Part shown: in pieces, positions 2,899-25,266 of the stretch
Numbering within the stretch: position 1 is the first letter of the stretch
How the letters are laid out: each line of letters starts with the position of its first letter
Assembly: GCA_001899635.1 (NCBI GenBank)
Contig: MKVQ01000031.1
Span: 1-64,000 of the forward strand
Reading direction: 5' to 3'
DNA: 64,000 nt
From: Myxococcales bacterium 68-20
GTDB lineage: Bacteria; Myxococcota_A; Polyangia; Polyangiales; Polyangiaceae
Program-made: the position numbers and the translations under genes
The notes under the pieces: model-generated
Databases searched by the model: none
Told to the model about the DNA's origin: nothing
Seen by the model: only the letters and a program-made list of their open reading frames with translations

Positions 2899-3057
2899 TC
2901 AGAGGACGACGCTGGGTGGCGCGTCGGTTCGCCGCTCGCGCGCGAGCCGGCTCTGCGGGCCGAGCACGGGATCGAGCAGCGTGAGCGCCCTGGCCATCTT
3001 GGCGGAGACGTCGGCGTCGGACATGCGCGCGACGATGGCCCCGAGCAGATCGAGCCA
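2637..3057. repeat. 210-bp tandem duplication of the kinase gene 3' end
   Basis: The segment at about 2848-3057, which encodes the C-terminus and stop of the kinase gene, is repeated at about 2637-2848 with a period of 210-211 bp. AGAGGACGAC occurs at 2691 and 2901, and GACGATTCGCG at 2639 and 2850. The outer copy is non-coding because the true stop codon (2899-2901) precedes it. A handful of substitutions separate the copies, so the duplication is fairly recent. Confidence 0.85.
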
Positions 3058-5424: not shown

Positions 5425-5471
5425 AGTCCGAACGTAGCAACGCCCGACGAGAACGAACACGGCGGACTACG

Positions 5472-5688
5472 CGCGTCGCTCCGACTCGCGCGGGAGCCGG
5501 GCGACCGTCTCGGGACGCGAGGAACCGACGTGAGCGGCGCTCACGCGGGAGCCGGGCGACCGTCTCGGGCCCGCAGGGAACGGACATCGACCGTGAGCGG
5601 CGCTCCGACTCACGCGGGAGGCGGGCTACCCGTCTCAGGCCGCGAGGAAGCCGCCGTCGACCGAGAGCGGCGCTCCGGTCACGTAGCC
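5472..5688. repeat. About 3.5 tandem copies of the SDR gene 3' end
   Basis: Units starting with CCGTCTC at 5505, 5560 and 5630 share the run through GCGGCGCTC to CACGCGGGAG; a half unit lies at 5472-5504. The unit at 5630 contains the stop codon and last 15 or so codons of the SDR gene (VDGGFLAA). The other units are diverged copies placed beyond the gene's 3' end. They are 55-70 bp long and not multiples of three, so they do not extend the protein. Confidence 0.75.
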
Positions 5689-6399
5689 GGCGCCTTCCGA
5701 GCACAACCAGAGTACGGCGCTCGCGATTTCGTCTTCGGTCGCCATGCGCGCCATCGGGTGCTGAGCGACCAGCTGCTGCACGATCTCGGGAGCGAACGCT
5801 TCGGCCTGCGCCATCGCCGGGGTACGGGTGACGCCCGCGCAGATGGCGTTCACTCGAACGCCTCGAGACGCGTATTCGAGTGCAACCGAGCGCGTCATCC
5901 CGAGGACCGCATGCTTCGAAGCCACATAGGCGTGATGCGCGGCCCTCCCGGCGACGCCGTAGATCGAGCTCATGTTGACGATGGCCCCGCCACCCGATGC
6001 GAGCATGGCAGGGATCTCCCAGCGCATCGCGAGCCAAACGCCGCGCGCGTTGATCGCCATCACGCTGTCCCAGACCTCTTGATTCGTGGCCTCGAGCGGC
6101 GCCATGTCGCCACCGGCACCGGCGCTGTTCGCCGCGAAATCGAGCCTGCCGAAGTGCTTCGTCACGGCTCCCACGGCGTTCGCGACCGACGCTTCGTCGC
6201 GCACATCGGCCTGGACGAAGATCGCTCGGCCGCCTTCGGCTTCGATCGCGGCGCATGCCGAATGCCCCGCCTCTTCTCCACGTGCAGCGATCGCCACGCT
6301 CGCCCCGGCGCGCGCGAATGCACGCGCGGTGGCGAGGCCGATCCCCGAGCTGCCTCCGGTGACGAGCGCAACCTTCCCAGAATAGTCGTACCTGATCAT
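5635..6399 (-). CDS. SDR-family oxidoreductase (classical)
   Basis: 254 aa, the normal size of a classical short-chain dehydrogenase/reductase. The NAD(P) motif TGGSSGIG is at residues 14-21. NSAGAGG replaces the usual NNAG. The active site is Ser in IVNMSS with YVASKHA (Tyr and Lys four apart), and the C-terminus ends SVDGGFLAA as in the FabG group. The sequence resembles general 3-oxoacyl-reductase-like or alcohol dehydrogenases; the substrate cannot be told. The start follows a purine-rich AAAGGGAATCGAG. The gene lies 52 bp downstream of a TetR gene on the same strand, which suggests co-transcription and control by that repressor. Confidence 0.9.
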   Translation of the reverse strand: MIRYDYSGKVALVTGGSSGIGLATARAFARAGASVAIAARGEEAGHSACAAIEAEGGRAIFVQADVRDEASVANAVGAVTKHFGRLDFAANSAGAGGDMAPLEATNQEVWDSVMAINARGVWLAMRWEIPAMLASGGGAIVNMSSIYGVAGRAAHHAYVASKHAVLGMTRSVALEYASRGVRVNAICAGVTRTPAMAQAEAFAPEIVQQLVAQHPMARMATEDEIASAVLWLCSEGAGYVTGAPLSVDGGFLAA

Positions 6400-6451
6400 C
6401 TCGATTCCCTTTCATTCCCCCACGCTTCGAGACGACGTCGAAGCTCGCCGA

Positions 6452-7105
6452 TCACCCGCCGAGGCCGTGCCGGATGAAGAGCACCGCCTGGTGAGCGAGC
6501 ACGCGACGTCGCTTGGGGCCGAGCCGCTTGCGCAGCGAGTCCGAAGCGAGCACCTCGTGAAGCTCGGCGCCGAGCTCCCGAAGAACGACGTCGGTCAAGC
6601 CGGGGCCGATGATCGTCGCCACGAGGCGCGTCGCGACGTCGAGGTCGGGCGCTTCGAATGCACCACTCGCGACGCCCTGCTCGAGCAGGGAGCGAAGCTC
6701 CTCGATGCCGGCCTCGCAGATCGCCTTGTGCAGGCCGCGAACCTCGATGATGGCCGTCGGATCGGCGGCAGCGGCGGAGAGGCGCGCAAGACGCGGATGC
6801 TCGACGAGGAATGCCATCCCGCGCTCGATCGTGTCCTCGAGCCGCGTCCAGAAGTCCCTGTCTCGCCCGACGTCACCGACGAACGCCCGCTTGCGGCGCG
6901 GCACTTCGTCGGTGAGGAGCCAGCGGTACAGATCGAGCTTGTCCTCGAAGTATTGGTAGAAGCTCCCCTTCGGGATGCGTGATCGTTGCGCGATCTGCGA
7001 GAGCGACGCCTCGGCGTAGGTCCGCTCCGCGAACTCGAGGATCGCCTCCTCGACGAGACGGTCTCGGCGCTCGTCCGGCAGTCGAAAGAACGTGGGCTTC
7101 GGCAT
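6452..7105 (-). CDS. TetR/AcrR-family transcriptional regulator
   Basis: 217 aa, a typical TetR length. The N-terminal helix-turn-helix spans about residues 14-60, with ILEFAERTYAEASLSQIAQRS and the recognition helix segment PKGSFYQYFEDKLDLY, both strongly family-like. The C-terminal 150 residues form the variable ligand and dimer domain. It sits upstream of an SDR gene on the same strand. Its own start codon overlaps the palindrome at 7104-7139, so autorepression together with the SDR gene is likely. The ligand is unknown. Confidence 0.92.
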   Translation of the reverse strand: MPKPTFFRLPDERRDRLVEEAILEFAERTYAEASLSQIAQRSRIPKGSFYQYFEDKLDLYRWLLTDEVPRRKRAFVGDVGRDRDFWTRLEDTIERGMAFLVEHPRLARLSAAAADPTAIIEVRGLHKAICEAGIEELRSLLEQGVASGAFEAPDLDVATRLVATIIGPGLTDVVLRELGAELHEVLASDSLRKRLGPKRRRVLAHQAVLFIRHGLGG

Positions 7106-7139
7106 GCGACCGACCAGTCATATGACCGATCGGTCGCAT
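7104..7139. promoter_or_regulatory. TetR-type operator overlapping the tetR start codon
   Basis: A 36-bp imperfect palindrome centred on ATAT. The right half contains the perfect 12-mer GACCGATCGGTC (7124-7135), a classic TetR-family half-site arrangement. The left half has its degenerate relative, GACCGACCAGTC. Two overlapping operators, which could bind two dimers, are therefore possible. It begins inside the start codon of the regulator, so bound protein would block initiation. Confidence 0.75.
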
Positions 7140-7174
7140 CGGCGCAAGGGCCTTCTCAGAAAAGGTCCGAGCCC

Positions 7175-8986
7175 TCAATCCACGCGTGGAGGCGGAGCGT
7201 CGTTGACGGGCCGGCTGCCCATTCCGCCGGCGTAGCCGTAGCTTGCGTCCTTGCCGAGGCCCCACACGGTGACCGAGAAGGCGCCTTCGCTCTGCGCTTC
7301 GTGCCGGCCGTACCCGCACTCGCCCTTCGCGAACTTCTGGGAGACGAAGCCCTTCGTGAGCTCGACGTACGCATACTCGTATTCGCCGTTCTTCCCGAGC
7401 GGAGCGAAGCCGGTGATCTCCCCTGCGCACTCGAGGTTGACCGGGCGAAAGCCATTCGCGGTCTTCTTGCGAACGATCGTCAGCGTCGTGTCGGGGAACG
7501 TGTGGTCGGTGAAGAAGATGTACCGATCGAGGAACTGCTCCGACGGGACGATGTTGACGAAGTCGGGGTCGCCCATCGTCATCCCGCGACTGGGGGAGCC
7601 GCCGCCGTTCGTCGCGCCGGTCATGTGCACACCGACGTAGAACGGATGCTTCGAGTCCTGACTCCTCACCGTGACGAGTGTGTCGGTGTAGAAGTCCGCC
7701 GTCTGCCCGGCCGAGAGCGTGGCCGGCGCGCCCGGCGGCTTCTCCGGATCGTACGTGAGCACGGTGCCGTCGACGGCGCCGACGATGCTCCACGGGACGT
7801 TCTCCCGCGCGACGCTCGTCACGTTCAACGTGCGGGCCTTGAACGGCACCAGCGCGTACTGAGTGCCCCACTGTGAGAACGGCGCGATCTGTTGCTGGGT
7901 GAGGTCGCAGAACGGATCGTTGTTCGGGATGAAGGTGCAGGGCGAGCCACCGAACATCCCGACGGGCTTGCTCGCCGAGATCGGGCTCCCGGTGAGGTTC
8001 GCCGTCTGCGTCACCTGCAGCACCTGACCTCGAGAGAGCGTCCACGTGACCGGCGCGCCGGCGACCCCTGGAGCGACGCCGTCCCCCTGGCTGACGGCCT
8101 CGAGCGGCCGCATCGAGACCTTCGTGTCGTCTTCGTTCGCGACGATCTGGAGCGTGCGCCGATCGAGGTCCGAAGGCTGGAGCGTGCCGAACCTGCCGGT
8201 CGCGACGGCGATGTAGCTCTTGTCCCACGACGAAACCGGCAGAAGCAGCGTCGCCGTCGGGAAGAAGCTCTTGGCGCCTCCGTACGGGAAGATCGAGTAC
8301 GCGGCGACCGGCGCGTCCGACGTGATGTGGAAGGCGCGCGTCTTCACCGTCCCGTGACGGATCGGGTCACGCTTCACGGCTGGCACGATCCCGGCTGGGC
8401 ATCGCGTGGCCGCAGGATCGATCGGCGCCTCCGCCTGCGAGAGGAAGACGAGCGCCACCTCCCCCGGCGGGATCGGGCCTTCGAGCTTCGTGTACGACAG
8501 CTCCTTGCCGTTGCGCGTCGCCGTGTAGACGGACTGCGAGATGTCGAGCGGCGCCGAGTCGAAGTCGGCGCTCAGCTTCACGGAGCGATCCCATGTGTTC
8601 GCGATCATCGCGACGAAGCAGGCGCCGGGGCCTTGCTCGCCGTCATCTGGCGGGAGCGTCCAGAACGAACAGCCGGTCGACCCCTTCGAGAGCTCGGCGG
8701 CCTCACATGCGTCGATGCACTTGTCGATCCCGCAGCCCTGGTCCGGACCGCACTTCGCGACGGTCTCCACGGTGTCATTGCATTCCTTCATCACCGTCTT
8801 GAGGTCGGGCGAGCAACGGAACCCGCACACGCCAGCCTCCGGCAGCGAAGCATCGTCGCCATCGAAGGAGGCCGGTTCGCGATCCTCGAAGCGATCTCGA
8901 TCGCCCGAACATGCGCCGGCGAGGACGGCGGCGAGGACGGCACCGGAGATCAGAGCGGCAAAGCGGAAGCGAACGTCGATCATCAT
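7175..8986 (-). CDS. Lipoprotein, IgGFc-binding-protein-like (cassette 1, gene 5)
   Basis: About 603 aa. Signal sequence with lipobox (LAGAC near residue 26), then an acidic linker and a short Cys-rich region (VCGFRCSPDLK, CGPDQGCGIDKC). The rest is a large beta-rich domain of the IgGFc-binding type, found in many myxobacterial surface proteins; the end reads GEYEYAYVEL to YGYAGGMGS. The ligand is unknown, and IgG binding should not be assumed in a soil bacterium. Its closest relative here is the protein at 58582-60357, which shares the same end and spacing (TLTIVRKK / SLVIVRAK; NLECAG / WLECAG). It is the last gene of a five-gene run, 14 bp after the RCC1 gene. A GTG ending at 8992 is an alternative start. 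Confidence 0.8.
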   Translation of the reverse strand: MMIDVRFRFAALISGAVLAAVLAGACSGDRDRFEDREPASFDGDDASLPEAGVCGFRCSPDLKTVMKECNDTVETVAKCGPDQGCGIDKCIDACEAAELSKGSTGCSFWTLPPDDGEQGPGACFVAMIANTWDRSVKLSADFDSAPLDISQSVYTATRNGKELSYTKLEGPIPPGEVALVFLSQAEAPIDPAATRCPAGIVPAVKRDPIRHGTVKTRAFHITSDAPVAAYSIFPYGGAKSFFPTATLLLPVSSWDKSYIAVATGRFGTLQPSDLDRRTLQIVANEDDTKVSMRPLEAVSQGDGVAPGVAGAPVTWTLSRGQVLQVTQTANLTGSPISASKPVGMFGGSPCTFIPNNDPFCDLTQQQIAPFSQWGTQYALVPFKARTLNVTSVARENVPWSIVGAVDGTVLTYDPEKPPGAPATLSAGQTADFYTDTLVTVRSQDSKHPFYVGVHMTGATNGGGSPSRGMTMGDPDFVNIVPSEQFLDRYIFFTDHTFPDTTLTIVRKKTANGFRPVNLECAGEITGFAPLGKNGEYEYAYVELTKGFVSQKFAKGECGYGRHEAQSEGAFSVTVWGLGKDASYGYAGGMGSRPVNDAPPPRVD

Positions 8987-10516: not shown

Positions 10517-11704
10517 CTAGGGCTTCTTCGCCGGGTCGAGGTGGAGGGCGATGTCATCGCCGACGAGCCAGACGTCCCCCGGCCCCTTCGCCCACGTGCC
10601 GTAGAAGGGAGCGATGACCGGATAGCGGGTCACCGTGATGGCCGCGTCGACCCATTCCGTGCCGTTCCAGCGACGGATGCGCCCGTACTCGCCTGCGGTC
10701 CACGCATCGTTGGGCGAGACGGCGCTGATCGCGTTCGTGGCCGGATCCTCGTACGTGCCATCGAGCTCCGACGACCACGTGAACGTCTGGCCGTCGTCCG
10801 CGCTCGTCCCGCGAACGAAGATGGCCTGACCTCCGGTCGTTCGCGCATGGACGAGCATGTTCGTATCGGAGCTCATCGCGACGCTGGTGACCGCCCCGAG
10901 CACGTCGAACTCGTCGAACGGCTTCGGATGCCCCGGAAGAGTGAGGACATCGAAGGTCGACGCTCCCCCAGGAGCTCGCCGGAAGACGGTGCCCATCTCG
11001 AGGAACACGTCCGGGTCGAGCGTCGTCCCCGCGAGCCAGACGCCCGTCGCGGCGCTGCCCCACACGTGGGAAAACCGGATCTCCGGCGCCGAGGTCGAGA
11101 CCGGATCGGCGACCCAACCTCCGCCTGCACCGTAGTGCAGGACACGCGAGCGAGGAGACTCCCCGTCGTCCGGCAGCACCAGGACGGCCCAGACGTCAGC
11201 CGCGCTCGCCCCCCAGATCGACACCACCGTACCGGTCGGCGTGGTCGAGGGCGCGAAAGCCAGCGCCGCCGGGCTCGTGCCGGTGCCATGGAAGAGCCCG
11301 TTGTCCCCACCGACCCAGAGATCGGTCGGGCCGCTCCCCCACACCGTGGTGAGCGGGCCGAGGCCAGATACATGCACTGTCCATGCTTTTCCGTCCCAGC
11401 GCAGGATCGCGCCCTGGTCGCTGACGGCCCACACTGCTCCCTGGCCGTCACCCCAGACGCCTCGCAGCGTTTGGTTCTTCGGCAGCACGGTGTGGCAGTA
11501 GCCCTCGTCCGAACAATCGCGCGGCGGCGCGGCGGCGTCGCCGTCAGGACCGGCTTCCGGCACGGCGCCGTCGACGGCCGGCAGCGTTCCAGCGTCCAGG
11601 TCGTCTCTCGGCGGAGCGCCGTTCTCGGCCTCTGCACACGCGACGAACACACTGACGAGCCCCAGCGCCATGCAGGCGGCGGGCACTCGAAGGATCGAGC
11701 TCAC
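10517..11704 (-). CDS. Lipoprotein with VWG-type beta-propeller repeats (cassette 1, gene 3)
   Basis: 395 aa. Lipoprotein signal (LVSVFVACAE), Asp/Ala/Pro-rich linker, then a pair CSDEGYCHTVLP and repeats of the form LRGVWGDGQGAVWAVSDQGAILRWDG, TTVWGSGPTDLWVGGD and GTWAKGPGDVWLVGDD. These 40-50 residue repeats are common in myxobacterial lipoproteins and resemble BNR or WD blades. Function unknown. It starts with GTG, and its GTGA overlaps the stop of the preceding gene. It pairs with the protein at 55900-57225: both open with CSxxGxC and end in a WxVGDxxALH motif. Confidence 0.78.
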   Translation of the reverse strand: MSSILRVPAACMALGLVSVFVACAEAENGAPPRDDLDAGTLPAVDGAVPEAGPDGDAAAPPRDCSDEGYCHTVLPKNQTLRGVWGDGQGAVWAVSDQGAILRWDGKAWTVHVSGLGPLTTVWGSGPTDLWVGGDNGLFHGTGTSPAALAFAPSTTPTGTVVSIWGASAADVWAVLVLPDDGESPRSRVLHYGAGGGWVADPVSTSAPEIRFSHVWGSAATGVWLAGTTLDPDVFLEMGTVFRRAPGGASTFDVLTLPGHPKPFDEFDVLGAVTSVAMSSDTNMLVHARTTGGQAIFVRGTSADDGQTFTWSSELDGTYEDPATNAISAVSPNDAWTAGEYGRIRRWNGTEWVDAAITVTRYPVIAPFYGTWAKGPGDVWLVGDDIALHLDPAKKP

Positions 11705-12924
11705 TGAGAACCTCCCGCATCGCCGAGCTTGGCGCCCGTGTAGTGGAGCGCGACGCCGTCACCGACGATCCAGACGTCGTCGCGAGCGCTTCCCCAAACT
11801 CCGTAGAGCGTGGGCTTCTTGCCGACCGGGAATGCCGCGGCCGTCTTCGTCCACGCCTTGCCGTCGTAGTGGAGGATGGTGCCGACGTCGCCGACCGCCC
11901 AGACATCGTCGGCGGCGGAGCCCCAGACGGCACGCAGGCGCTCGCTCGTCGGAGACGGAACGACCTCCAGCTTCGTCACCGTTGCGCTCGTTGCGTGGCG
12001 GATCGACCCCATGTCACCGACCGCCCAGATGTCGTTCGCCGAGCTGCCCCAGATCGCGCGGAGAGCGACCGCCGACCGACTGTCGACCTCGGTCCACGTG
12101 AGCGCGCCGCCGTCGGCGCCGCCGCTCCCGTGCAACGTGAGACCGAGCTCCCACTTCTTGTGGAGCGAGTTGTCGGCGACGAGCCAGACGTCCTCCGGAC
12201 CGCTGCCCCAGATGCCGTACACGTTGGCCGTGCCGGGGATGCCTACCCAGTCGAAGGAGCCGTCGGGGAGCAGATGCCTGACGAAGGCGTTGCTCGCGAC
12301 GAAGTCCTCGGTGTCCGGGACAGGCAGGTAGAAGGACTGACCTGCGATGCGGAGATCGCCGGCCTTCGTTCCCCAGATCGCGAAGACGGGTGCGTCGTTG
12401 TCTTTGTCGAGGGGGAGCGGGACGCGCTCCCACTCGGTGTCCTTGCCGGCCCAACCCGCGCTGCGGAAGACGGCGTCGGTCGAGCTCGCCACCCAGACGT
12501 CATTCGGACCGCTTCCCCAGACGGTGTTGAAGGTGTTCTTCACTGCCGTCGGCGTGGCCGTCCATGCGGTTCCGTCCCAGTGAACGATCGTTCCACCCGA
12601 ACCGACGGCCCAGACGTCGTTCTTGCTCGCTCCCCATACCGCGGTGAGCGCGTAGAACCCGGACACGGTGGTCGGCACCGGACACCACGGGGCTTCATCG
12701 CACGACAGCGGGCGCGCGACGCAGTCGTCGTCCGAAGGATCGCAACCCGCGTCGGGCCCCGCGTCTCGGTTCCCAGCGTCCGCTCCGCCGCCATCGAGGG
12801 AGAGCGAATCATCGGGCGCGCTCGGTTGGTCGACATGCGACTCGGCACAGCTCGCGAACGCGGGCACGAGGGCGAGCGCGAGCAGCGCGGAGGCGCCGAA
12901 GAAGGATTTGTCCCTGACACGCAT
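11701..12924 (-). CDS. Lipoprotein with VWG-type beta-propeller repeats (cassette 1, gene 2)
   Basis: About 407 aa. Signal and lipobox (VPAFASCAE), then a Gly/Asp spacer with a few Cys and propeller blades such as LTAVWGASKNDVWAVGSGG, NTVWGSGPNDVWVAS, RAIWGSSANDIWAVGD and RAVWGSAADDVWAVGD. The ATG ending at 12924 overlaps the stop of the Cys-rich gene (TGATG), so translation is coupled. The frame stays open upstream inside the preceding gene, but that part is Arg-rich shadow. No catalytic motif. Counterpart in cassette 2: 54680-55903. Confidence 0.8.
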   Translation of the reverse strand: MRVRDKSFFGASALLALALVPAFASCAESHVDQPSAPDDSLSLDGGGADAGNRDAGPDAGCDPSDDDCVARPLSCDEAPWCPVPTTVSGFYALTAVWGASKNDVWAVGSGGTIVHWDGTAWTATPTAVKNTFNTVWGSGPNDVWVASSTDAVFRSAGWAGKDTEWERVPLPLDKDNDAPVFAIWGTKAGDLRIAGQSFYLPVPDTEDFVASNAFVRHLLPDGSFDWVGIPGTANVYGIWGSGPEDVWLVADNSLHKKWELGLTLHGSGGADGGALTWTEVDSRSAVALRAIWGSSANDIWAVGDMGSIRHATSATVTKLEVVPSPTSERLRAVWGSAADDVWAVGDVGTILHYDGKAWTKTAAAFPVGKKPTLYGVWGSARDDVWIVGDGVALHYTGAKLGDAGGSQ

Positions 12925-14135
12925 CAAAACACCGTCCCCGCGTCGCACTCGGTCATGAGGCACTTGCCTTCGATGCAGGGCTGTCCGCCGGCGACGTCGC
13001 AGGCGTTGCCGCATGTGCCGCAATTGCCGGGATGAGCCATCACGTTCGTCTCGCAACCGTCGCTCGGGTCGCCGTTGCAGTCGGCGAAGCCGGGGAGGCA
13101 GTCGAGCTCGCAAATGCCTTTGCGACACGCGCTCACCTGGTTCGGGCCGGCGCCCTGGCAGAACCGGGAGCACGATCCACAGGCCATGACGTCGTTCAGC
13201 AGGTCGCGGCACTGGCCGAACGGGCAGAGCACCTTGCCGAAGCGAACGCACGGGACGGCGCACTCGGGGCCGTTACCCTCGTTGACGCACTCCTCACCCG
13301 CCTTGCACTTGATCCCGCAGCCTCCGCAGTTGTTCGGATCCGTGCGGACGTCGGGCACCTCGCAGCCGTCCGAGTTGCATCCCGGCTGGCCGAGGTCGCC
13401 ATTGCAGTCGGCCGTGGGCATCTTGCACTTGGGGGTGCCGCACACGCCTCCGTAGCAGCCGTAGTAGGCGCCGTTGGGGAGCTCGCCGCACGTGCCGCCC
13501 TCGGGATCGCAAGGCTGATCGCAACCGTTGCAGTGGTTGTCGTCGGTCTTCGGGTCGACGCACTGCCCATGGCAGACGATCTCCCCCGGCTCGCAGCCAC
13601 ATACTCCGTCGATGCACGGCTCGCCCGGGGCGCATGCGTTCCCGCATGCACCGCAGTGCTTCACGTTCGTGAGGACGTCGGCCTCGCAGCCGTTGTCGAC
13701 CTTGCCATCGCAGTTGCGCCAGTCCTTCTGGTTTCCGGGATCGTAGGGACTGAAGCACTCGAGCTCGCACGTCCCCTCGACGCACCGCGAGCTCATGTGG
13801 ATGGGCGCGTAGAGGAGGCACTTGTTCCCGCACCCGCCGCAGTTGTCGGGATCCCGCTTCAGATCCGCCCCGCACTTGTAGGCGGGCCCCGTTCCGTCCG
13901 CACACGTGGCGAACCCTTCGGGACACGCGGTCGCGATGCAGGCGAGCTCGTGGACCGGGGCGTCGACCACGGCGGCATCCCCACCGTCCGCAGGCGCCGC
14001 CCCGAAGCCGGAGGGACCGGCATCGACCGCGTCGACCCCCCTGTCGACGGAGCTACCGCATGCAGCGACGACGACGATCAGCACGGCCCCGGTCAGGGTG
14101 ACCGTGAGGAGTTGCTTCGATGATGAAGGGAACAA
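12924..14135 (-). CDS. Cys-rich lipoprotein with six NCGGCG repeats (cassette 1, gene 1)
   Basis: About 403 aa. The start is inferred as TTG ending at 14135, preceded by GGGAGGGCTCC; no ATG or GTG lies near the signal peptide. The signal LLTVTLTGAVLIVVVAAC gives a lipoprotein. The mature part holds six cysteine motifs (NCGGCGNKC, HCGACGNAC, HCNGCDQPC, NCGGCGIKC, ACGSCSRFC, NCGTCGNAC) separated by CNGD/GCE elements. These modules are abundant in Polyangiales surface proteins and are probably disulfide-knotted stalks; some databases mislabel them as tryptophan synthase. Function unknown. It is the first gene of the five-gene cassette, with its homologue at 53445-54683. Confidence 0.8.
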   Translation of the reverse strand: MFPSSSKQLLTVTLTGAVLIVVVAACGSSVDRGVDAVDAGPSGFGAAPADGGDAAVVDAPVHELACIATACPEGFATCADGTGPAYKCGADLKRDPDNCGGCGNKCLLYAPIHMSSRCVEGTCELECFSPYDPGNQKDWRNCDGKVDNGCEADVLTNVKHCGACGNACAPGEPCIDGVCGCEPGEIVCHGQCVDPKTDDNHCNGCDQPCDPEGGTCGELPNGAYYGCYGGVCGTPKCKMPTADCNGDLGQPGCNSDGCEVPDVRTDPNNCGGCGIKCKAGEECVNEGNGPECAVPCVRFGKVLCPFGQCRDLLNDVMACGSCSRFCQGAGPNQVSACRKGICELDCLPGFADCNGDPSDGCETNVMAHPGNCGTCGNACDVAGGQPCIEGKCLMTECDAGTVF

Positions 14136-16676: not shown

Positions 16677-18158
16677 TCACGTCCCGCAGAACGTATGCCG
16701 CACGCGCTCTTCCGGCAGCGGGGGCTCGGCGAGATAGGCGAAGTCGGGCTGATCGTCGTACGGACGCTCGAGGACGCGCGTCAGGGTCTCGAACGGCTCG
16801 AAGTCCGCGCGGCGGACGGCCGCCTCGATGACCTCTTCGATGCGATGGTTGCGCGGGATGAACGCGGGGTTCGCGAGCCGCATCGCACGGGCGCGTGCCT
16901 CGGGAGCGACGTCCTCGCCCGCCAGCCTGCGGCGCCACGACTCCGCCCAGTCGCGGAACGCGCCGGGCTCCGCGAAGGACGACGCGATCGCCTCGTCCGC
17001 CGCAGGATCGGCCGCGGACGCGCAGAGCCGGCGGAAGAAGAGCGTGTAGTCGACCTGATTCGCGGCGAGCCGCTCGAGCAGATCGGAGGCGAGCGCGAGG
17101 TCGTCCGCTTCTTCGTGTACGAGCCCGAGCTTCGATCGCAAGACGCTGGTGTGCGCCGCTTCGAGGAGCGAGGGGAAGCGATTCAGCAGATCGGTCGCCA
17201 GGCGAACGGCCTCATCTTCCTCGTCGGCGAGGAGAGGCAAGAGGGCCTCCGCGAGCCGCGCGAGGTTCCATTGCGCGATGCGGGGCTGGTTCGCGAAAGC
17301 GTACCGGCCGCCGTGGTCGATGGAGCTGAACTTCTTCCGCGGATCGTACTCGTCGAGGAAGGCGCACGGGCCGTAGTCGATCGTCTCGCCGGAGATGGAC
17401 GTGTTGTCGGTGTTCATCACGCCGTGCACGAAGCCGACGCCCAGCCAGCGCGCGACGAGCCGCGCCTGGGCCTCGATCACGCGCTCGAGCAAAGCGAGCG
17501 CGTCGTTGCCGGTGCCGGTCGCGTCGGGGTAGTGCCGGGCGAGCGCGTAGGTCGCGAGCGTGGCGAGCGCCTCGCGATCGTCGCGAGCCGCGAAGAACTC
17601 GAACGTGCCGACGCGAATGTGGCTCGCCGCGACGCGCGTGAGCACGGCGCCCGGGAGCATCTCCTCCCGAGCGACGACCTCGCCCGTCGTCACGGCCGCG
17701 AGCGCACGCGTGGTCGGCACACCGAGCGCCGCCATCGCCTCGCTCACGACGTACTCGCGAAGCACGGGACCGAGCGCGGCGCGGCCGTCCCCACCGCGCG
17801 AGAACGGCGTCCGCCCGGCGCCCTTGAGCTGGACGTCGCGGCGCTTGCCGTCCGTGCCGACGACCTCGCCGAGCAAGATCGCCCGTCCGTCACCGAGCTG
17901 CCGGACGAAGCTCCCGAACTGGTGTCCGGCGTAGGCGAGCGCGATCGGCTCGGCGCCCTCGGGCAGCACGTTGCCCGCGAGCAGCTGAGCTCCCTCGGGA
18001 GATTCGAGCTCGGCCGGATCGAGCCCGAGCATCGACGCGAGCGCGCGGTTGACCTTCACGAGGCGAGGCTCGCGCACCTTCGTGGGAGCGACCCGCGCAT
18101 GGAAGCGATCGGGCAGACGCGCGTAGGTATTGTCGAACGTGAACGCCATCGCCGCCAT
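16677..18158 (-). CDS. selO: Protein adenylyltransferase SelO (YdiU/UPF0061)
   Basis: About 493 aa, matching SelO length. SelO is a pseudokinase that transfers AMP from ATP to Ser, Thr or Tyr of proteins, linked to redox stress. Family blocks are clear: [65 protein letters not shown] (Asn and Asp ligands for Mg-ATP) and [15 protein letters not shown]. The protein ends FCGT, with Cys third from the end where eukaryotic SELENOO has selenocysteine; the codon is TGC. The start is either the ATG ending at 18158 or the one ending at 18149; neither has a strong ribosome binding site. Confidence 0.92.
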
Positions 18159-18419
18159 CACTAGCAGATGGCGAGCCTTCACGCGCCCGCCAGCCGATGT
18201 TCGGCGCCCACCCGATAGGCAGAGCGACAACCGGCTATCGTCGCATGGCTCCCGGCAGGGACGTCACCGACTGCGCATGAAATTCAAGGAGCGCCGAGAC
18301 GCACCTCTGCGGGTAGTTGGGGCGCGAGCTCCAAATTTGGCGGCGCCGACGCCACCGACTTCACGTTCGAGCCGAAGCGACCTCGAGCGTTGCCGAACAT
18401 GCGGTGCGCTTGGTCGTGA

Positions 18420-19910
18420 TCACTGCCGCGCGCACTGCATCTCGTCGAGCGAGCTCTGACCGCGAGGCAGCATGCAGCGAGTTCCGCTCGGGCAGCCGGC
18501 GGAATCGGCGCAGGCAACGCCACACACGCGACGGTTGGACGAGACGGCGATGCAGCGACTGTCGGCGGATCCGCAGTCCGCGTTCGACCGGCACGCCACC
18601 CCCACCTTCGAGACGTCGGCGAGCGGACTCACCTTCGGATTGTCGTCGATGCCATGAACGCCGTAGACGTGAACCCACGAACGCTCGCCGACCGCGTTCA
18701 TGCGCGAGAGGACGCTGTCCCACGAGCGGGGCACCCAGGTCCCGGAGCGCTGGTCGATGAACGAGTGGATGAACGAGATGACCTGGTTGGCCTTGCGCTG
18801 GATGGCCGAGTAGTTCCCGGTCGTGATGATGTCGGTGTTCGCGGGGTTCCTCGCCGGGTTCTCGTAGAGCTTGTCGGCGTAGCCGGTGTACGTCTCGCAA
18901 CCGTTGAAGAGATAGACCTGCTGCTTTCCGTTCGACTCGATGTCCTTGAACTTGCCCGCCGGGATCGCCACCCGCGCCGGCTTGTAGGCGAAGACGACGC
19001 CGGAGTAGTCGAGCGAGCGGCCCGCGTGACCGTCGTAGATCACGACGTCCGCGCTCTTCATGCTCTCCTTGTAGGCGTCGATGAGCGGCTGGCGCATCTC
19101 GGACGTGGTCATGTCCACGTGGAAGAGACGCACGCGCACGTCGACGGACTCGCCCTTCACGTTGATCCGACTCGTGAACGGGGGCGAGTCGATCGCGAGC
19201 TCCGCGAAGCTGCGCACCGGAGAGCGGAAGCCGGAGGCAACGAGGTCGTCGTAGATCGAGCGCGCGTGCTCGATGTCCTGCGGCGGATCGTGGTGGTCGC
19301 CGCCGACGTGCACGGCGATGTCGAGGCCGCCCTCGAAGAGCTCGAGGTACTTCGGGTACGCGTTGCGGCTTCGCTCGACCGGCGTGAGGACGATCTCGAG
19401 CTGCTGGCTTTCGCCGTCGACGCTCGCCGTCACCGGGAGGAACTTCTTCCCGCCCTCGATCCGGAGCGGCAGCTTCTGCTCGAGATCGTTCACCCCGGCG
19501 AACTCGCCGCTGACGACCATCTCGTAGCGGGCGCCGTCTTCGCTCGCCTTCAGGTCCGAGTACGTCGCGCTCGCCTGCCGGAACTGGATGACGAGCCCGG
19601 CACGCGTGAGGCGCTGAGCTTCGGGCCAGATGCGATCGAGCTCGGCGGAGATCGCCGACGTCACCGTCGTGCGGAGCGCCTCGGCGCGCGCGACGACGGC
19701 GAGCTCCCTCGCCTCCCCCTCCAGATCTTGCGCCGCGGCCGGCGCCGCGAACCTCACCGTGGTGGAGAGCGTGAACTCCTGCCCCGCGGTGCTCCGATAG
19801 TTGATCTCATCGGACGACGAGTCGGTCTCCTCGACCTCGGTCGCACAAGCGGTCGCCAGGAGCGCGGGGACGGTGAGCGCGAACGCGAGGCGTCGCCAGG
19901 AGGGGAGCAT
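18420..19910 (-). CDS. Caspase/CHAT-like lipoprotein, putative clan CD peptidase
   Basis: About 496 aa. N-terminal lipoprotein signal (ALTVPALLATAC, Cys21-22). Residues about 190-350 read like a caspase-fold core: DIAVHVGGDHHDP opens it, ADVVIYDGHAGRSL carries a His (H295) after a hydrophobic strand, and QVYLFNGCETYTGY carries a Cys (C338) after the next core strand, as in CHAT and gingipain-type peptidases. The C-terminus is Cys-rich (CRSNADCGSADSRC, CADSAGCPSGTRC), common in myxobacterial surface proteins. Activity is inference; no substrate is known. An in-frame ATG lies slightly upstream. Family known: clan CD uses a His/Cys dyad; seen: H295 and C338 in the right order. Confidence 0.6.
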   Translation of the reverse strand: MLPSWRRLAFALTVPALLATACATEVEETDSSSDEINYRSTAGQEFTLSTTVRFAAPAAAQDLEGEARELAVVARAEALRTTVTSAISAELDRIWPEAQRLTRAGLVIQFRQASATYSDLKASEDGARYEMVVSGEFAGVNDLEQKLPLRIEGGKKFLPVTASVDGESQQLEIVLTPVERSRNAYPKYLELFEGGLDIAVHVGGDHHDPPQDIEHARSIYDDLVASGFRSPVRSFAELAIDSPPFTSRINVKGESVDVRVRLFHVDMTTSEMRQPLIDAYKESMKSADVVIYDGHAGRSLDYSGVVFAYKPARVAIPAGKFKDIESNGKQQVYLFNGCETYTGYADKLYENPARNPANTDIITTGNYSAIQRKANQVISFIHSFIDQRSGTWVPRSWDSVLSRMNAVGERSWVHVYGVHGIDDNPKVSPLADVSKVGVACRSNADCGSADSRCIAVSSNRRVCGVACADSAGCPSGTRCMLPRGQSSLDEMQCARQ

Positions 19911-20115
19911 GGCAGGCGCCGAGCACGCGACATGCCACCATGTGGGACACATGAATGCGCGGGGTTTCGCCGGCATTCGTCGACGCGAGGCGGCTCCCTG
20001 ATGCTTCGATGATCCGGGGCAAGGCCTCAGATCCCGCCATCGAGAGAGACACGCTACGGCCTCGTCGACCTCCCGGGCGATGGCAACGAGACGCGAGACG
20101 CCAGGCGCGGCTCGC

Positions 20116-21954
20116 TCACGCCGCTTCGGGGGCAGGTCGCCCCGCAGCGGCTCCGTCGCCGCTCTGGCCAGGACGTCCGTCGATCTCCTCGATCGCCGTG
20201 ATGCGAGCGCCGACGTCGAGAGCCAGCACGTCGACGCGCTCGCGTGGGCGGAGGAGGCGTCCAGGCCGACCGACCTCCGGACCACGGAGCTGGATGTCGA
20301 TCGCAGGCGCGTCGCCGACGGCACGAACGACGTGGAGGCTCGCAAGGCCGTCCGCCTCGACGAGCTCCTCGTGCGCGAGGAGGCTCCGCGAGACGAGCTC
20401 CACGGAGCGTGCGCCGCCGGAGCCTTGCTCGAGCTCGCGGAAGCGGAGCTCCTCGAGCCTGCCCTCGATCGCCTTGCCGAGCATGCGGTGCGGATGCGCG
20501 TGGATCGGCGTCACCGATCCCGCCTCGCGGACGACCGCGACGAGCGCCCAGCCCGACTTCCCCTCCCAGTACGTGAGCCAGCGACAGCCCTCGCCGTGAC
20601 CGAGCGGGCTCGTCCGTGCCGGAATGAGCTCGCCAATCGAGGGGCTCAGCAGATCGAGCAGACGCCGGAGGAAAACGTCGTCGATCGAGCCAGCTTCCTC
20701 GCGCCGGTCGAGGAGGACCGTCGCCTCCTCGAGGGTGAGGAGCTCGCCGCTCTCGAAGCGTCGCTCGATCGCCTGCGCACGTGCCTTCTTGCCCGCAAAG
20801 ATGCGGTGGAGGACGAACGTCGTGACGAGCGCGACGGCTCCGATCGCAATCGCGATGCCGGCTCTGTCGCGCGCGAGAAACGCGATCATCGTGACCGTGA
20901 GTCCCGCCATCCAGACCGAAGCGCCGGCGCCGACGAAGAGCGCGCGGATGCTCGAGCCGAGGATCGTTCGGACCGAGAGGTGGAGCCCGATGCCGGCGGC
21001 GACCGCCGACATGAGGACATCGAGGACGAAGCGGTTCGCGGAGATGAGCATCTTCCACGCGGCGACCTCGCCGAAGACGCGATCGCCCGTGGCCCGGACG
21101 ATCGCGAGGACGACGTACCCGACGATGAAGCCGGGCAGCGCGTCGACGATGCTCTTCACGAGCTGGTTCGATCGCGGCGCCGACTGACGTGCATCCCTGC
21201 GCGCGAGGGCAATCGCCACGAGGACGGGGGCGAGGAGGAGGATGCGCGCGGACTTCGACGCCGCCGCCATCACGCCGCCGCTCTCACCCATCTGCGCTCC
21301 GACCGCGACTGCGCTCGAGAGGTCGTTGACGGCGAGGCCGCTCCAGAGCCCGGCGAACGACGGATCGAGACCGATCGCCAGCGCGATCGTGCGGAACGAG
21401 AGCATCGCGGTGACGCTGAAGAGGAACGTGATGCCAATCGCGACGCCCTGCTCCTCGCGATGCGCTCCACACGCGGGGGCGATCGCGTTCACGGCCGATG
21501 CTCCGCAGATCATCGTCCCGCCGGCAACGAGATCGACGAGCGGCCTGCGAACACGGAGCGCGACGCCGAGGAGATGGGAGACGAAGAACGCGCTCGGGAC
21601 CGACGCTGCGGCGACGATGAAAATCGTGGCGATCTCGGTCTTGCCGAAGAACGACGTCTGCACCTTCATCCCCATCAGGATGATCGAGAGGCGCAGCACC
21701 CACTTGCCGGTGAAGCGGAGGCCCGATGCATACCGGTCGGGCTCGCGCTCCTTGCCGACGGGGCCGACGCCCACGAGCCGCCCGAGCGGGGTATTGAGAA
21801 CGAGCGCGCCGAGGAAGAGCGCGATGAGGACATCGGAGAGGAGCGGCGACGGCGGCAGGACCTTCACCGTGGCGACGGCAACAGCCCCGATCGCGAGGGC
21901 AAGCGCGATGCCGGGGACGTCGGCTCGCCTGGGAAGCCACTGGGGTCGTTTCAT
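20116..21954 (-). CDS. YeiH-type putative sulfate exporter fused to cysteine-dioxygenase-like cupin
   Basis: 612 aa, against about 350 for ordinary YeiH/UPF0324. Residues 10-390 are a polytopic membrane domain with the YeiH blocks LIALFLGALVLNT, RLSIILMGMKV, DLVAGGTMICGASAVNAIAP and GLHLSVRTI. Residues about 400-570 are soluble and resemble type I cysteine dioxygenase: SVTPIHAHPHR supplies H485 and H487, GKAIEGRLEELRF follows as in the cupin strand, and a third His (H541) sits in SLHVVRAVG. Cysteine dioxygenase makes cysteine sulfinate, which breaks down to sulfite. The divergent neighbour is a sulfite dehydrogenase, so cysteine oxidation, sulfite oxidation and anion export appear linked. Start: ATG ending at 21954. 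Confidence 0.85.
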   Translation of the reverse strand: MKRPQWLPRRADVPGIALALAIGAVAVATVKVLPPSPLLSDVLIALFLGALVLNTPLGRLVGVGPVGKEREPDRYASGLRFTGKWVLRLSIILMGMKVQTSFFGKTEIATIFIVAAASVPSAFFVSHLLGVALRVRRPLVDLVAGGTMICGASAVNAIAPACGAHREEQGVAIGITFLFSVTAMLSFRTIALAIGLDPSFAGLWSGLAVNDLSSAVAVGAQMGESGGVMAAASKSARILLLAPVLVAIALARRDARQSAPRSNQLVKSIVDALPGFIVGYVVLAIVRATGDRVFGEVAAWKMLISANRFVLDVLMSAVAAGIGLHLSVRTILGSSIRALFVGAGASVWMAGLTVTMIAFLARDRAGIAIAIGAVALVTTFVLHRIFAGKKARAQAIERRFESGELLTLEEATVLLDRREEAGSIDDVFLRRLLDLLSPSIGELIPARTSPLGHGEGCRWLTYWEGKSGWALVAVVREAGSVTPIHAHPHRMLGKAIEGRLEELRFRELEQGSGGARSVELVSRSLLAHEELVEADGLASLHVVRAVGDAPAIDIQLRGPEVGRPGRLLRPRERVDVLALDVGARITAIEEIDGRPGQSGDGAAAGRPAPEAA

Positions 21955-22080
21955 TGCTCGCTTCCTGACTCGTCTCTCTCGACCTACGTCACTCGCCCGC
22001 GGCGACCGCGCCCTGCGAGCGGCCGTCTCATAGCACGGCCCCCGTGTCTCCCTTGACCCCGGCGCGCAGTCGTCGTTTTG

Positions 22081-23217
22081 ATGCACCGCATGATCGGCCG
22101 GCGCAGGCTCCTCGAAGCGGCAGGCGTCGCGCTCGCGTTCTCTCCGCGGAGCGCCCTCGCCGACGAGCTCCTCCGTCAGGGACGCGAGCCCCAGAACCTC
22201 GCGACCCCGACGGGGCTCTACGACCGCCTCATCACCCCGACGCCGTCGTTCTTCGTCCGGAGCCACTTCGGTCCCCCGGCGCTCGACCCGAACCGCGCAG
22301 TCAGCGTCGAAGGGCTCGTCGCGAGCAAGCTCTCGCTGTCCGCCGCGGATCTGAAGAAGACGTTCCCCGCCGTGACCGTCACCGCGGTCCTCCAGTGCGC
22401 GGGCAACGGCCGCGCGCTTCACGTCCCGCGAGTCCCCGGGCTCCAGTGGCAACATGGCGCCGTGGGTCAGGCGACCTTCACGGGAGCCCGCCTCCGCGAT
22501 GTCCTCCAGAAGGCCGGGCTCGGCGCGGAGCACGCGAAGGGAACGCACGTGCATGTGCTCGGAGCCGATGCGCCGCCGAAGCCGTCGACGCCGCCGTTCC
22601 TCAGGAGCATTCCCATCGAGCGCGCGCTCGACCCGAGCACGCTCGTCGCGTGGGCGATGAACGGCGAGGACCTCACGCTCGCGCATGGCGCGCCGCTCCG
22701 GCTCGTCGTCCCCGGATGGGCGGGCGATCACTGGGTGAAGTGGCTCGTGCGCCTAGCGGTGCAGAAAGAGGAGGCGAAGGGCTTCTTCATGGAGACCGCG
22801 TACCGGATGCCGACCGAGAAGGTCGAGCCCGGCTCCGTGGTGCCGCCGGAGAAGATGCGCCCCGCGACGACGTTCCCGATCAAGTCGATCATCGGCGCGC
22901 CGCTGGACGGCTCGCGCACGCCGAAGGGACCGCAGAAGGTCGTCGGCGTGGCGTTCTCGGGCGACGCGCCGATCGCCAAGGTCGAGGTTTCCCTCGACGA
23001 CGGCAAGACCTGGCGCCCGGCAAAGCTCGAAGGCGAGCCGGGCGTCGGACGCTGGGTCGTCTTCGAGTACCGATTCGAGCAGAAGGAGCCCGGGCGCGTC
23101 CGCGCGCTCGCCCGCGCGACGGATCGAAAGGGCAACGCGCAGCCCGAGCGCGCTGCGTGGAACCCGAGCGGCTACTTCTGGAACGCGTGGCACGCGGTCT
23201 CGTGGGAGGTCACGTGA
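22081..23217 (+). CDS. sorA: Sulfite dehydrogenase / sulfite oxidase molybdenum subunit
   Basis: About 378 aa. Twin-arginine-like start (GRRRLLEAAGVALAF) predicts Tat export of a folded cofactor enzyme. Residues 40-230 hold the sulfite-oxidase fold, with the molybdenum-ligand Cys (C106) in VLQCAGNGR, then HGAVGQATFTGARLRDVL and LVVPGWAGDHWVKWL. Residues 265-375 form the C-terminal Mo-co dimerisation domain (GVAFSGDAPIAKVEVSLDDGKTW). It oxidises sulfite to sulfate in the periplasm using the Mo cofactor. The next gene, overlapping by GTGA, is a dihaem cytochrome that would accept the electrons. A TTG at 22078 is an alternative start. Confidence 0.9.
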   Translation: MHRMIGRRRLLEAAGVALAFSPRSALADELLRQGREPQNLATPTGLYDRLITPTPSFFVRSHFGPPALDPNRAVSVEGLVASKLSLSAADLKKTFPAVTVTAVLQCAGNGRALHVPRVPGLQWQHGAVGQATFTGARLRDVLQKAGLGAEHAKGTHVHVLGADAPPKPSTPPFLRSIPIERALDPSTLVAWAMNGEDLTLAHGAPLRLVVPGWAGDHWVKWLVRLAVQKEEAKGFFMETAYRMPTEKVEPGSVVPPEKMRPATTFPIKSIIGAPLDGSRTPKGPQKVVGVAFSGDAPIAKVEVSLDDGKTWRPAKLEGEPGVGRWVVFEYRFEQKEPGRVRALARATDRKGNAQPERAAWNPSGYFWNAWHAVSWEVT

Positions 23218-23885
23218 GCTCCCTCCTCCGATCGACGACCGCGATCGCGTTCGTCCTCGCCGCCATGACGGCGTGCTCGAAGGACAAGCTCCTCGGGCTT
23301 CCGTCCGACGCCGCAGCCACGAGCACCGCCACCACTGCAGCCGACGCCGCTCCGCCGGTCGTCGCCGCACGGACGGGCCTCTCGCCGGAGGAGGGCCGCG
23401 CGCTCGTGAAGGGGGCCTGCCTCTCCTGCCACTCGGAGGAGATGCTCGCGCAGCAGCGCCTCACCGAAGCGCAGTGGACGAAGACCGTGACCAAGATGGT
23501 CGCCTGGGGCGCGAACCTCGAGCCGAACGACACCGCACCGCTCACGGCGTGGCTCGCGGCGACCTACGGTCCCGACGCCGGTCCGTACACGGCGGCCCCG
23601 ATCGACGTCGATGCGGCAGCCGCCGAGATCGCTCCCCTGCCCGACGGCCCGTACGCGAACGGCGATCCCGAGCGCGGCCGCGCGATCTACACGGACAAGT
23701 GCTCGGGCTGTCATGGTCCCGAGGCGCGCGGGCACATCGGCGTCCTCCTCGTCGACCGCCCCTTCCTCTACCACGCGGCGAGCTTCGCCGAGACGGTACG
23801 ACGCGGCCGCGGAAAGATGATGCCCATCGCGATGACGGACGCGGAGCTCGCCGACGTGCTCGCGCATCTCCGCCGGCTCCGTTGA
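23214..23885 (+). CDS. Dihaem c-type cytochrome lipoprotein, SorB-like
   Basis: 223 aa. Starts with GTG overlapping the sorA stop. Lipobox around MTACSK (Cys21). Two haem-binding motifs: C69LSCH73 and C163SGCH167. The second domain is a short class I cytochrome c (GDPERGRAIYTDKCSGCHG). It fits the electron acceptor of the upstream sulfite dehydrogenase, passing electrons to the respiratory chain. Known SorB proteins are usually monohaem, so the two-domain form may be lineage specific. Confidence 0.85.
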   Translation: MSSLLRSTTAIAFVLAAMTACSKDKLLGLPSDAAATSTATTAADAAPPVVAARTGLSPEEGRALVKGACLSCHSEEMLAQQRLTEAQWTKTVTKMVAWGANLEPNDTAPLTAWLAATYGPDAGPYTAAPIDVDAAAAEIAPLPDGPYANGDPERGRAIYTDKCSGCHGPEARGHIGVLLVDRPFLYHAASFAETVRRGRGKMMPIAMTDAELADVLAHLRRLR

Positions 23886-23931
23886 CGACGCGCGTTCTCG
23901 GGAGTGAAGCCGCCCAGGGGGCGCCCGCGGG

Positions 23932-25266
23932 CTACTTCGCGACCTTCAAGAGCGCGCCGGCTGTCGGAGTCGCTCCCCGCGCGACGTAGTAGACGTTGGT
24001 GTCGTCGATGCCGATTGGGCCGGGGTTCGTCGCGCCGCTGGCGAGGGTCTCCGCCTTCGTCCCGCAGCCTGCGACGAGATCGCGACAGACGCGGACCGTG
24101 CCGATGCTTCCGTTGGTCCAATAGGCGCCCGTGGCGTCCACGACGAGGCCATCGATCACCTGCTCGGCCGTCGCGATCACCTTCGGCGCGCCATTGCATC
24201 CCGTCGGGGCGCAAGCGAGGACGCGAGCCGTTGCGCCTCCATCGCGCCCCCAGTCGGCCCAGTAGACGACGTTGTCGTGGTGGGTGATGTGGCCGCTGAA
24301 GCTCGCTGTGATCGCCGGTGCAAGTCCGATCGGAGTGCCACAGTCCTGCGCACCGTCGTAGCCCGTGGCTCCCGCCGGCGGGCGCGGGCAGGTCTGCACG
24401 GTGGCTCCACCGGTATGGTCGTGAAGCGTCCACGCGTAGTGCGTCGGCGTCAGCGTGATGCTCGACGGCGTCTCTCTGTTCGACAGGATCCCGACGCTCG
24501 AACAGCTCGCCTGGAAGCAACGGTGGTTGCGATAAGGCGAGACGAAGACGTGCTCGCGTGCATCGGTCGCCACGCGCGTCGAGTTCCCGAGCACCCACGC
24601 CGGCGAGAGCGCATTCGTGTGGAGCGCAGGAATGAGCGGAGGCGTGCCGTCTACCGTGGCGCGATAGAGGTTCGTGTCCTGAGGCAACGAGGCGCTGGTC
24701 GTCTTCGCGAGCAGGAACGCATGCGCGCCGTCCGGGCTCAGCGAGAGCGAGCCTTCCACCGGCTGCCACTCGTCGCTCTGCCAGAGCCGCGTCGCTCCCT
24801 GACTGCATCCCTCCTTGCCACAACGGACGAGCCCGCGCTTCACGCTCATGACGACGACGCTGGGGCTCACGGCGAGCGCGGTCGGCGTGTCGAGCTGGTC
24901 GACGAGCGTGACGGTGCTGCATCTTCCCGCGCTGCACGAGCTCCCCGTCCCGCACGCGCGGTCACATCGTCCGCAGTGCTGCGCGCTGCTCTGCTTGTCG
25001 ACACACGCGGAGCCGCACGCCTCGAGCGGGGCGTCACACGTCACGGTCGAGGCATCCCCTCCGTCACCGGCTGTACCGTCGTCGTCGCGCGCTCCGTCGT
25101 CGCGCGCTCCATCGGCGGCACCACCGTCGGAGGTCAGGTCGGTTCCGCCGCCGCCGACGAAGACCCCAGGGTCGTCGCCGACACAAGCAGCGAGACTGAC
25201 GGCGACAGCCGCGACCACGAACGACGAAGCAAGCCAGACCCCCGAATGCCGACGTTCCAAGCGCAT
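23932..25266 (-). CDS. Cys-motif lipoprotein with propeller-like domain
   Basis: About 444 aa. Lipoprotein signal (VVAAVAVSLAAC), an Asp/Gly/Ala-rich spacer, one Cys module (ACGSACVDKQSSAQHCGRCD and ACGTGSSCSAGRC) related to the NCGGCG repeats, then roughly 330 residues of repeating strands (LSLSPDGAHAFLLAK, HITHHDNVVYWADWG, GLVVDATGAYWTNG, GIDDTNVYYVARG) that look like a beta-propeller. Function unknown; surface display is likely. Convergent with the sulfite dehydrogenase operon, 46 bp away. The ATG ending at 25266 is chosen because the signal peptide begins there. Confidence 0.72.
   Translation of the reverse strand: MRLERRHSGVWLASSFVVAAVAVSLAACVGDDPGVFVGGGGTDLTSDGGAADGARDDGARDDDGTAGDGGDASTVTCDAPLEACGSACVDKQSSAQHCGRCDRACGTGSSCSAGRCSTVTLVDQLDTPTALAVSPSVVVMSVKRGLVRCGKEGCSQGATRLWQSDEWQPVEGSLSLSPDGAHAFLLAKTTSASLPQDTNLYRATVDGTPPLIPALHTNALSPAWVLGNSTRVATDAREHVFVSPYRNHRCFQASCSSVGILSNRETPSSITLTPTHYAWTLHDHTGGATVQTCPRPPAGATGYDGAQDCGTPIGLAPAITASFSGHITHHDNVVYWADWGRDGGATARVLACAPTGCNGAPKVIATAEQVIDGLVVDATGAYWTNGSIGTVRVCRDLVAGCGTKAETLASGATNPGPIGIDDTNVYYVARGATPTAGALLKVAK

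Follow-up and report, generated by a model that had tools for sequence, protein, structure and literature searches.

A single open frame of 612 aa without a stop was found on the reverse strand of the window (positions 20116 to 21954; the window is the whole 64,000-nucleotide stretch of DNA analysed here), encoding a YeiH-type transporter, an extra helix and what is best read as a remodelled thiol dioxygenase domain. The same two-domain protein was found in 12 other loci, so the fused frame is not a product of chance, and the joining of a YeiH-type membrane part to a soluble domain in one frame, which the initial annotation had put forward, is borne out. The protein may be an inner-membrane YeiH-family sulfite exporter with a tethered cytoplasmic Fe(II) domain of thiol dioxygenase type, derived from cysteine dioxygenase (CDO) and remodelled, a reading in which we place about as much trust as doubt. 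Its parts, all on the reverse strand, are the YeiH/PF03601 membrane unit (residues 1-361, positions 20872..21954), an additional predicted transmembrane helix (residues 365-386, 20797..20862) and the soluble domain (residues 400-575, 20230..20757). In five chosen sequence pairs (six fused genes give fifteen in all), dN/dS ranged from 0.145 to 0.224 for the soluble domain and from 0.181 to 0.317 for the membrane domain, being lower for the soluble domain in all five; the soluble domain is kept under selection. The C-terminal tail (window 20137-20193) includes a conserved stretch resembling EIDDRPGxxGEGAxxGR, present in the fused proteins except L040 and the early-ending L038.

Thirteen distinct fused loci, the window counted in, were gathered from the genomes of the phylum and from a species-genome collection. 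The whole-protein search matched 67 of 282 phylum genomes at E 0.001 or better (own genome included), with three other full-length relatives (59, 53 and 40% identity), and a scan of the species-genome collection by two peptide patterns, based on a soluble-domain profile of four rows, led to 49 candidate stretches and to ten loci (L031-L040), of which three were genes already found in the phylum search. An eleven-row profile run on 377 phylum genomes matched in 13 of them at E 0.01 or better: the six strong genomes were all fused (own genome included; G347 and G373 were new), and the seven weak matches comprised six in CDO-like proteins some 200 residues long, with CDO_I matched by five of these as well, and one (L053) that does not look related. 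The loci L031-L040 were labelled Labilithrix, Myxococcales, 'Deltaproteobacteria' (L037, identical to G139, which belongs to the window's phylum) or 'Proteobacteria' (L038), and all thirteen fused loci except L038 were of Myxococcota type by phylum or label; since a fusion to a distant CDO would escape a scan by two peptide patterns, restriction of the fusion to Myxococcota is not established. The start of the L033 fused gene lies outside its contig, and the L038 gene stops prematurely, partway through the soluble domain (L038:6400-6480), probably through a frameshift or an assembly error.

The fused sequences held together in both phylogenies. All 13 fused rows formed one group in the soluble-domain tree (100/99; the incomplete cL080 was excluded, leaving 28), and ten fused rows formed one group in the membrane-domain tree, set against 26 standalone YeiHs including that of E. 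coli (100/100; L007, cut by a contig end, and L086, the same gene as L023, were excluded, and the fused L033, L044 and L045 were not entered), with L040 splitting first in each. In the plasmid collection the whole-protein search returned 133 records with YeiH-like parts, and in none of these was 80% of the query covered at a single place. Staphylococcus accounted for 87 of the 133 records, and relatives of the exporter therefore occur on staphylococcal plasmids.

The membrane unit matched PF03601 over residues 14-341 (E 1.7e-38) with 132.7 bits, well above the Pfam curated score of 24.5, and matched TIGR00698 (YeiH) at E 1.6e-20 but below its cut-off (73.7 of 232.6 bits). In structural comparison it resembled Na+/H+ antiporters and CitS (VIA, best Z 13.7, which is near chance level for helical bundles), and a Na+/H+ antiporter is also named for YeiH in an excerpt of PMC12880088. 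According to the same excerpt, Salmonella depends on yeiH to resist sulfite, the support for sulfite or sulfate export there being genetic only and the mechanism left to future work (PMC12880088). The membrane domain of 390 residues described in the initial annotation thus keeps its YeiH-type character, but it divides into a YeiH unit ending at residue 361 and the additional helix.

Beyond the position of residue 361, the 27 standalone YeiHs compared (26 Myxococcota loci, one of them cut by its contig, plus E. coli YeiH) extended by at most 11 residues and are thus too short for such a helix; past this point the fused proteins have the helix at 365-386, followed by a basic segment. The C-terminus of Salmonella YeiH is predicted to be periplasmic (excerpt of PMC12880088), and because one helix is added to it in the fused proteins, the soluble domain would lie in the cytoplasm, a placement based on helix count and charge.

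The family of the soluble domain was revealed by profiles of its relatives and by the basal L040, single searches with the window domain being uninformative. The window protein had no CDO_I (PF05995) match over its whole length and no Pfam match in its soluble part, and the soluble domain alone, for which the initial annotation had proposed an HMM search, retrieved nothing useful from Pfam, NCBIfam or PDB. CDO_I was matched by two of eleven fused domains (best E 0.0016), with scores of 15.9 and 11.6 against the curated 23 bits, and one of the eleven matched Cupin_2 weakly (E 0.015). The profile built from the fused domains, run against PDB, retrieved chains of CDO and 3-MDO: thiol dioxygenases made up 23 of the 25 distinct sequences matched (E up to 10, best E 2.6e-4), 19 of them CDO1 entries, many of which are variants of one protein. 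For comparison, 29 of 33 standalone CDO places were used (L075 was excluded and three had no locus), and 20 of those 29 were taken in a further reduced set. Alignment of the fused domains with 20 standalone Myxococcota CDOs by hhalign gave a probability of 98.1 (E 8.4e-14), and the four PDB chains matched by L040 as a single sequence were thiol dioxygenases without exception (best E 7.4e-5).

Structural prediction pointed the same way. The ColabFold model of the soluble domain (mean pLDDT 68.9, below 50 in the HxH loop) has the N-terminal helices and beta barrel of a CDO-like thiol dioxygenase fold; Foldseek placed ADO first (E 3.7e-8), and in VIA-align the best row was rat CDO (Z 14.3, rmsd 3.5, 182 of 187 residues aligned), with thiol dioxygenases filling 49 of the 50 best rows listed. 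The single exception, an auxin-binding protein at row 47 (Z 10.0), ties with the ADO/PCO rows and not with CDO. With the full-length model, thiol dioxygenases were again listed by Foldseek, and several ordinary cupins shared their Z with ADO and CDO in VIA-align.

These ties, together with the lack of a Pfam match and the weak Cupin_2 hit, are what a generic cupin without a special relation to thiol dioxygenases, fused to a transporter, would give. Set against them are the sequence profiles and the domain model, which put CDO and 3-MDO first, and the residues of L040, which carries the CDO set in all but one position. The Glu following HxH is part of the usual cupin motif, and no such Glu of the first motif is present in the fused domain. 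On the profiles and the domain model, the comparison with the full-length model being less clear, the generic cupin was rejected as very improbable, and the outcome that would have undercut the initial annotation, a domain matching general cupins only, did not materialize. As judged from profiles and predicted structure, the soluble domain is a member of the thiol dioxygenase group and is closest to CDO and 3-MDO.

Active-site residues were compared by aligning all 13 fused domains together with 29 standalone CDOs, the CDO numbering being drawn from excerpts of PMC10966181 and PMC8503633. The three-histidine metal site was complete in 13/13 fused loci, with H485-A-H487 (20494..20502, reverse strand, as are all positions in this paragraph) at the place of the Fe ligands H86/H88 and H541 (20332..20334) at that of H140, exactly where these histidines had been located in the initial annotation. 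The numbers W77 and H86 are those that we take the two CDO positions to bear. R458 (20581..20583), equivalent to the substrate-binding R60, was likewise kept in 13/13 fused loci and in 28/29 standalone CDOs, and H489, K494 and E501 were invariant across the 13 fused domains.

Other CDO residues were exchanged in a clade of 12 fused loci that includes the window. Y58 (27/29 standalone CDOs) was G in 12/12, and W77 (29/29) was R in 12/12, represented by R476 (20527..20529) in the window protein. The Ser-His-Tyr (SHY) triad was replaced by D553-I-Q555-L-R557 (20284..20298): H155 and Y157, each present in the 28 standalone CDOs where they are visible, became Q and R in the 11 visible members of the clade, and S153, Ser or Thr in 28/28 CDOs, became D in 12 visible fused rows, L040 among them. 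The motif thus reads D-Q-R in the 11 visible members of the 12-member clade and D-H-Y in L040, the deepest fused branch and the sole keeper of Y58, W77, H155 and Y157. Because this branch still has Y, W, H and Y, the CDO-type site appears to have been inherited and then rebuilt; the window domain, in which the four residues are replaced, is no type I CDO in the textbook sense. The best reading is therefore descent from a cysteine dioxygenase-like enzyme followed by remodelling. The type I cysteine dioxygenase of the initial annotation stands as to the thiol dioxygenase group, on profiles, hhalign and structure rows; it falls as to strict type I, with CDO_I unmatched and the marks of that type replaced.

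The fused domain shares with CDO_I and the small-molecule thiol dioxygenases a near-full-length fold (at the level of the model), the three-His site, R60 and the missing first-motif Glu, and differs from them in being fused to a transporter, in the replacement of the SHY triad, Y58 and W77 in 12/13 fused loci, and in scoring below the Pfam cut-off. With ADO and the plant cysteine oxidases it shares the fold and the lack of the SHY triad, ADO being first by Foldseek; in those enzymes, however, an Asp stands at the place of the SHY His (excerpt of PMC8503633), whereas in the fused domain the Ser of SHY is replaced by Asp and the His by Gln. D553 was accordingly ruled out as the ADO/PCO aspartate, as it aligns to the Ser of SHY and that aspartate to the His. 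The fused clade presents two active-site states, one CDO-like (L040) and one rebuilt (the other twelve), on one scaffold with an unchanged iron site, which makes it useful for studying the role of the SHY triad.

The kept metal site and R60, with the CDO residues of L040, would also suit a domain that is still a CDO, converting cysteine to cysteine sulfinate, from which an ordinary transaminase would free sulfite for removal by the attached exporter. Own-genome searches gave no CDO_I match, and the fused domain may thus be the only CDO of this genome; the SHY triad is described in an excerpt of PMC8503633 as "not catalytically essential"; and a cysteine dioxygenase cooperates with the sulfite pump Ssu1 in fungi (excerpt of PMC10652793), so that the fused protein would be the bacterial counterpart of that dermatophyte pair. 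The exchange of Y58, W77, H155 and Y157 for identical residues wherever visible in the 12-member clade argues instead for a changed substrate or job, and we consider an unaltered CDO activity somewhat unlikely.

The genomic pairing of CDO and yeiH bears on the same question. One genome of the window's family has three adjoining genes (L086, G120:C71, ~1972-4750), as a CDO serving the exporter would predict: a standalone CDO and yeiH, with a gene between them that by eye resembles cysteine synthase and seems to have a broken frame. Among the nine sampled genomes with both genes, though, G120 was the only one with CDO and yeiH on one contig, the two being on different contigs in the other eight, and a general rule of CDO beside standalone yeiH was rejected.

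The SHY motif is highly conserved in small-molecule thiol dioxygenases (excerpt of PMC10966181), and its loss in the 12-member clade also fits a non-catalytic domain, one that would bind a metal and sulfite, a thiol or O2 and act as a sensor or gate opening and shutting the exporter. The gain of conserved arginines agrees with this, as does a visual reading of the gene lists of the window, L033, L034 and L036-L040, where no YeiE-like LysR regulator stood out; in Salmonella, YeiE (LysR) senses sulfite for YeiH (excerpt of PMC12880088). The three metal ligands and R60 are nevertheless all kept, and it is not evident why a domain that only senses a ligand would require the metal site and R60 together. 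We judge such a role unlikely. To our knowledge, there is no precedent for a sensor or gate domain of this kind.

Sulfur genes lie beside many of the fused genes. In the window, the divergent neighbour (22078..23217, forward strand) encodes a molybdopterin sulfite dehydrogenase (PF00174, E 8.9e-51) whose best PDB match was subunit A of sulfite:cytochrome c oxidoreductase (E 1.2e-65) and whose best-scoring NCBIfam family was SorA (E 1.7e-84; 283.8 bits, below the cut-off of 600). It is followed by a gene (23214..23885, forward strand) for a cytochrome c with two CxxCH motifs seen by eye, best-scoring with NCBIfam SorB (E 6.1e-12; 45.4 bits, below the cut-off of 93). As both fall short of the NCBIfam equivalog cut-offs, they are called SorA-like and SorB-like. 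Read by eye, the first begins with a twin-arginine-like stretch and the second with a lipobox-like one, fitting a location of both in the periplasm.

A divergent SorA-like gene was found less than 200 bases away in 6/13 fused loci (window, L031, L032, L034, L035 and G347), and a SorB-like gene followed it in five of the six, the contig of L035 ending inside SorA; these six loci are not independent, since all are in one close subclade of the soluble-domain tree. A gene for a persulfide dioxygenase-rhodanese adjoined four of the 13 fused genes, upstream in L037 and L038 and downstream in L036 and G373, and its position on either side suggests at least two arrangements. Identity of these neighbours to the query, which was L037's own, was 38% for G373 and 72-100% for the others, the L036 copy containing an N gap. 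Neither gene was present within the available flanks of L039 and L040, and the upstream side of L033 was not visible in these counts. For standalone YeiH, whose flanks reached no further than 1.5 kb, one or both sulfite genes stood beside 2/26 loci.

Two of the four persulfide dioxygenase-rhodanese neighbours were matched to PDB. The L002 gene (the same as that of L037) matched BpPRF, which we take to be a persulfide dioxygenase-rhodanese fusion, at E 1e-130 over residues 8-355, and also ETHE1 (E 2.6e-78), with a much weaker match to chains named glyoxalase II (5.4e-17); in NCBIfam its scores were below both cut-offs and near each other (bifunc_ST_SDO, 102.3 of 625 bits; glyoxalase II GloB, 99.4 of 200.8). 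The G373 copy matched BpPRF at E 3e-56, with both Pfam domains present. Persulfide-dioxygenase-like matches were found elsewhere in the window's own genome, the best with 55% over residues 9-241 and one in-frame stop. At one of the two standalone YeiH loci with such neighbours (L092, G241:C388:3500-11309, ~2970-7254, reverse strand), genes for a persulfide dioxygenase, a YeeE-like protein (by eye), YeiH, a SorA-like protein and cytochrome oxidase (by eye) lie on one strand; the sulfite route is the same there, with its parts unfused.

Since SorA-like and persulfide dioxygenase-rhodanese genes adjoin fused genes, sulfite is supported as the probable cargo. In the mechanism that we favour, the soluble domain would keep an iron site of three histidines together with the arginine holding the acid group of the substrate, its second shell being rebuilt with two further arginines. 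These presumably lie close to the metal and leave room for another substrate, and because of them a small thiol or persulfide more acidic than cysteine would most likely be oxidised. The oxidised sulfur, either sulfite or a sulfinate soon turned into sulfite, would arise where the transporter opens to the cytoplasm, a persulfide dioxygenase may add to cytoplasmic sulfur oxidation in some relatives, and sulfite would leave through the YeiH unit. In the lineage of the window, it would then be converted to sulfate in the periplasm by the SorAB-like sulfite dehydrogenase, with electrons passing to cytochrome c. The fusion suggests a membrane-tethered sulfur-disposal device, and together with its sulfur-gene neighbours it offers independent genomic evidence for sulfite as YeiH cargo and provides a protein for testing it.

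The channelling of a toxic sulfur product out of the cell, as the initial annotation had it, retains the link to sulfite through the neighbouring genes but not its directness: the product of CDO is cysteine sulfinate, from which sulfite comes only by later transamination, and direct hand-over of sulfite therefore needs a substrate other than cysteine. A cupin-fold sulfur dioxygenase evolved from CDO, with an arginine second shell, could split a persulfide or thiosulfate-like substrate and deliver sulfite directly into the attached exporter, which we regard as distinctly doubtful; if true, one protein would be a vectorial producer and exporter of sulfite.

Related systems were compared with the fusion. 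As in YeiH/PF03601 proteins, there are a membrane unit (residues 1-361) and sulfite-related neighbours, and the differences are the extra C-terminal helix, the soluble enzyme-like domain and a score below the TIGR00698 cut-off. Operons pairing persulfide dioxygenase-rhodanese fusions with exporters exist; proteins of the BpPRF type likewise would produce sulfite in the cytoplasm beside an exporter, and their gene adjoins four fused loci, but they have a metallo-beta-lactamase fold and are separate from the transporter. The Ssu1 pump family is unrelated to YeiH. In dermatophytes, a cysteine dioxygenase is paired with this sulfite efflux pump in one pathway (excerpt of PMC10652793), there as two genes and here as one bacterial polypeptide. 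That cdo is upregulated together with the exporter gene tauE in feather-degrading Streptomyces is mentioned in an excerpt of PMC12763843, which cites other work for it. No description of a YeiH-thiol dioxygenase fusion was found in the open-licence literature, so that the concern that it might already have been described was not borne out there.

No Rfam family matched positions 19500-24500 of the window at the gathering threshold. A gene for a SelO-type protein adenylyltransferase lies near the fused gene (16677-18182, reverse strand; PF02696, E 6.9e-118). Further along the same strand (10517-14135), three consecutive secreted-looking proteins were noted by eye, two with repeats of the WGS..DVWAVG type and one rich in Cys-Gly repeats.
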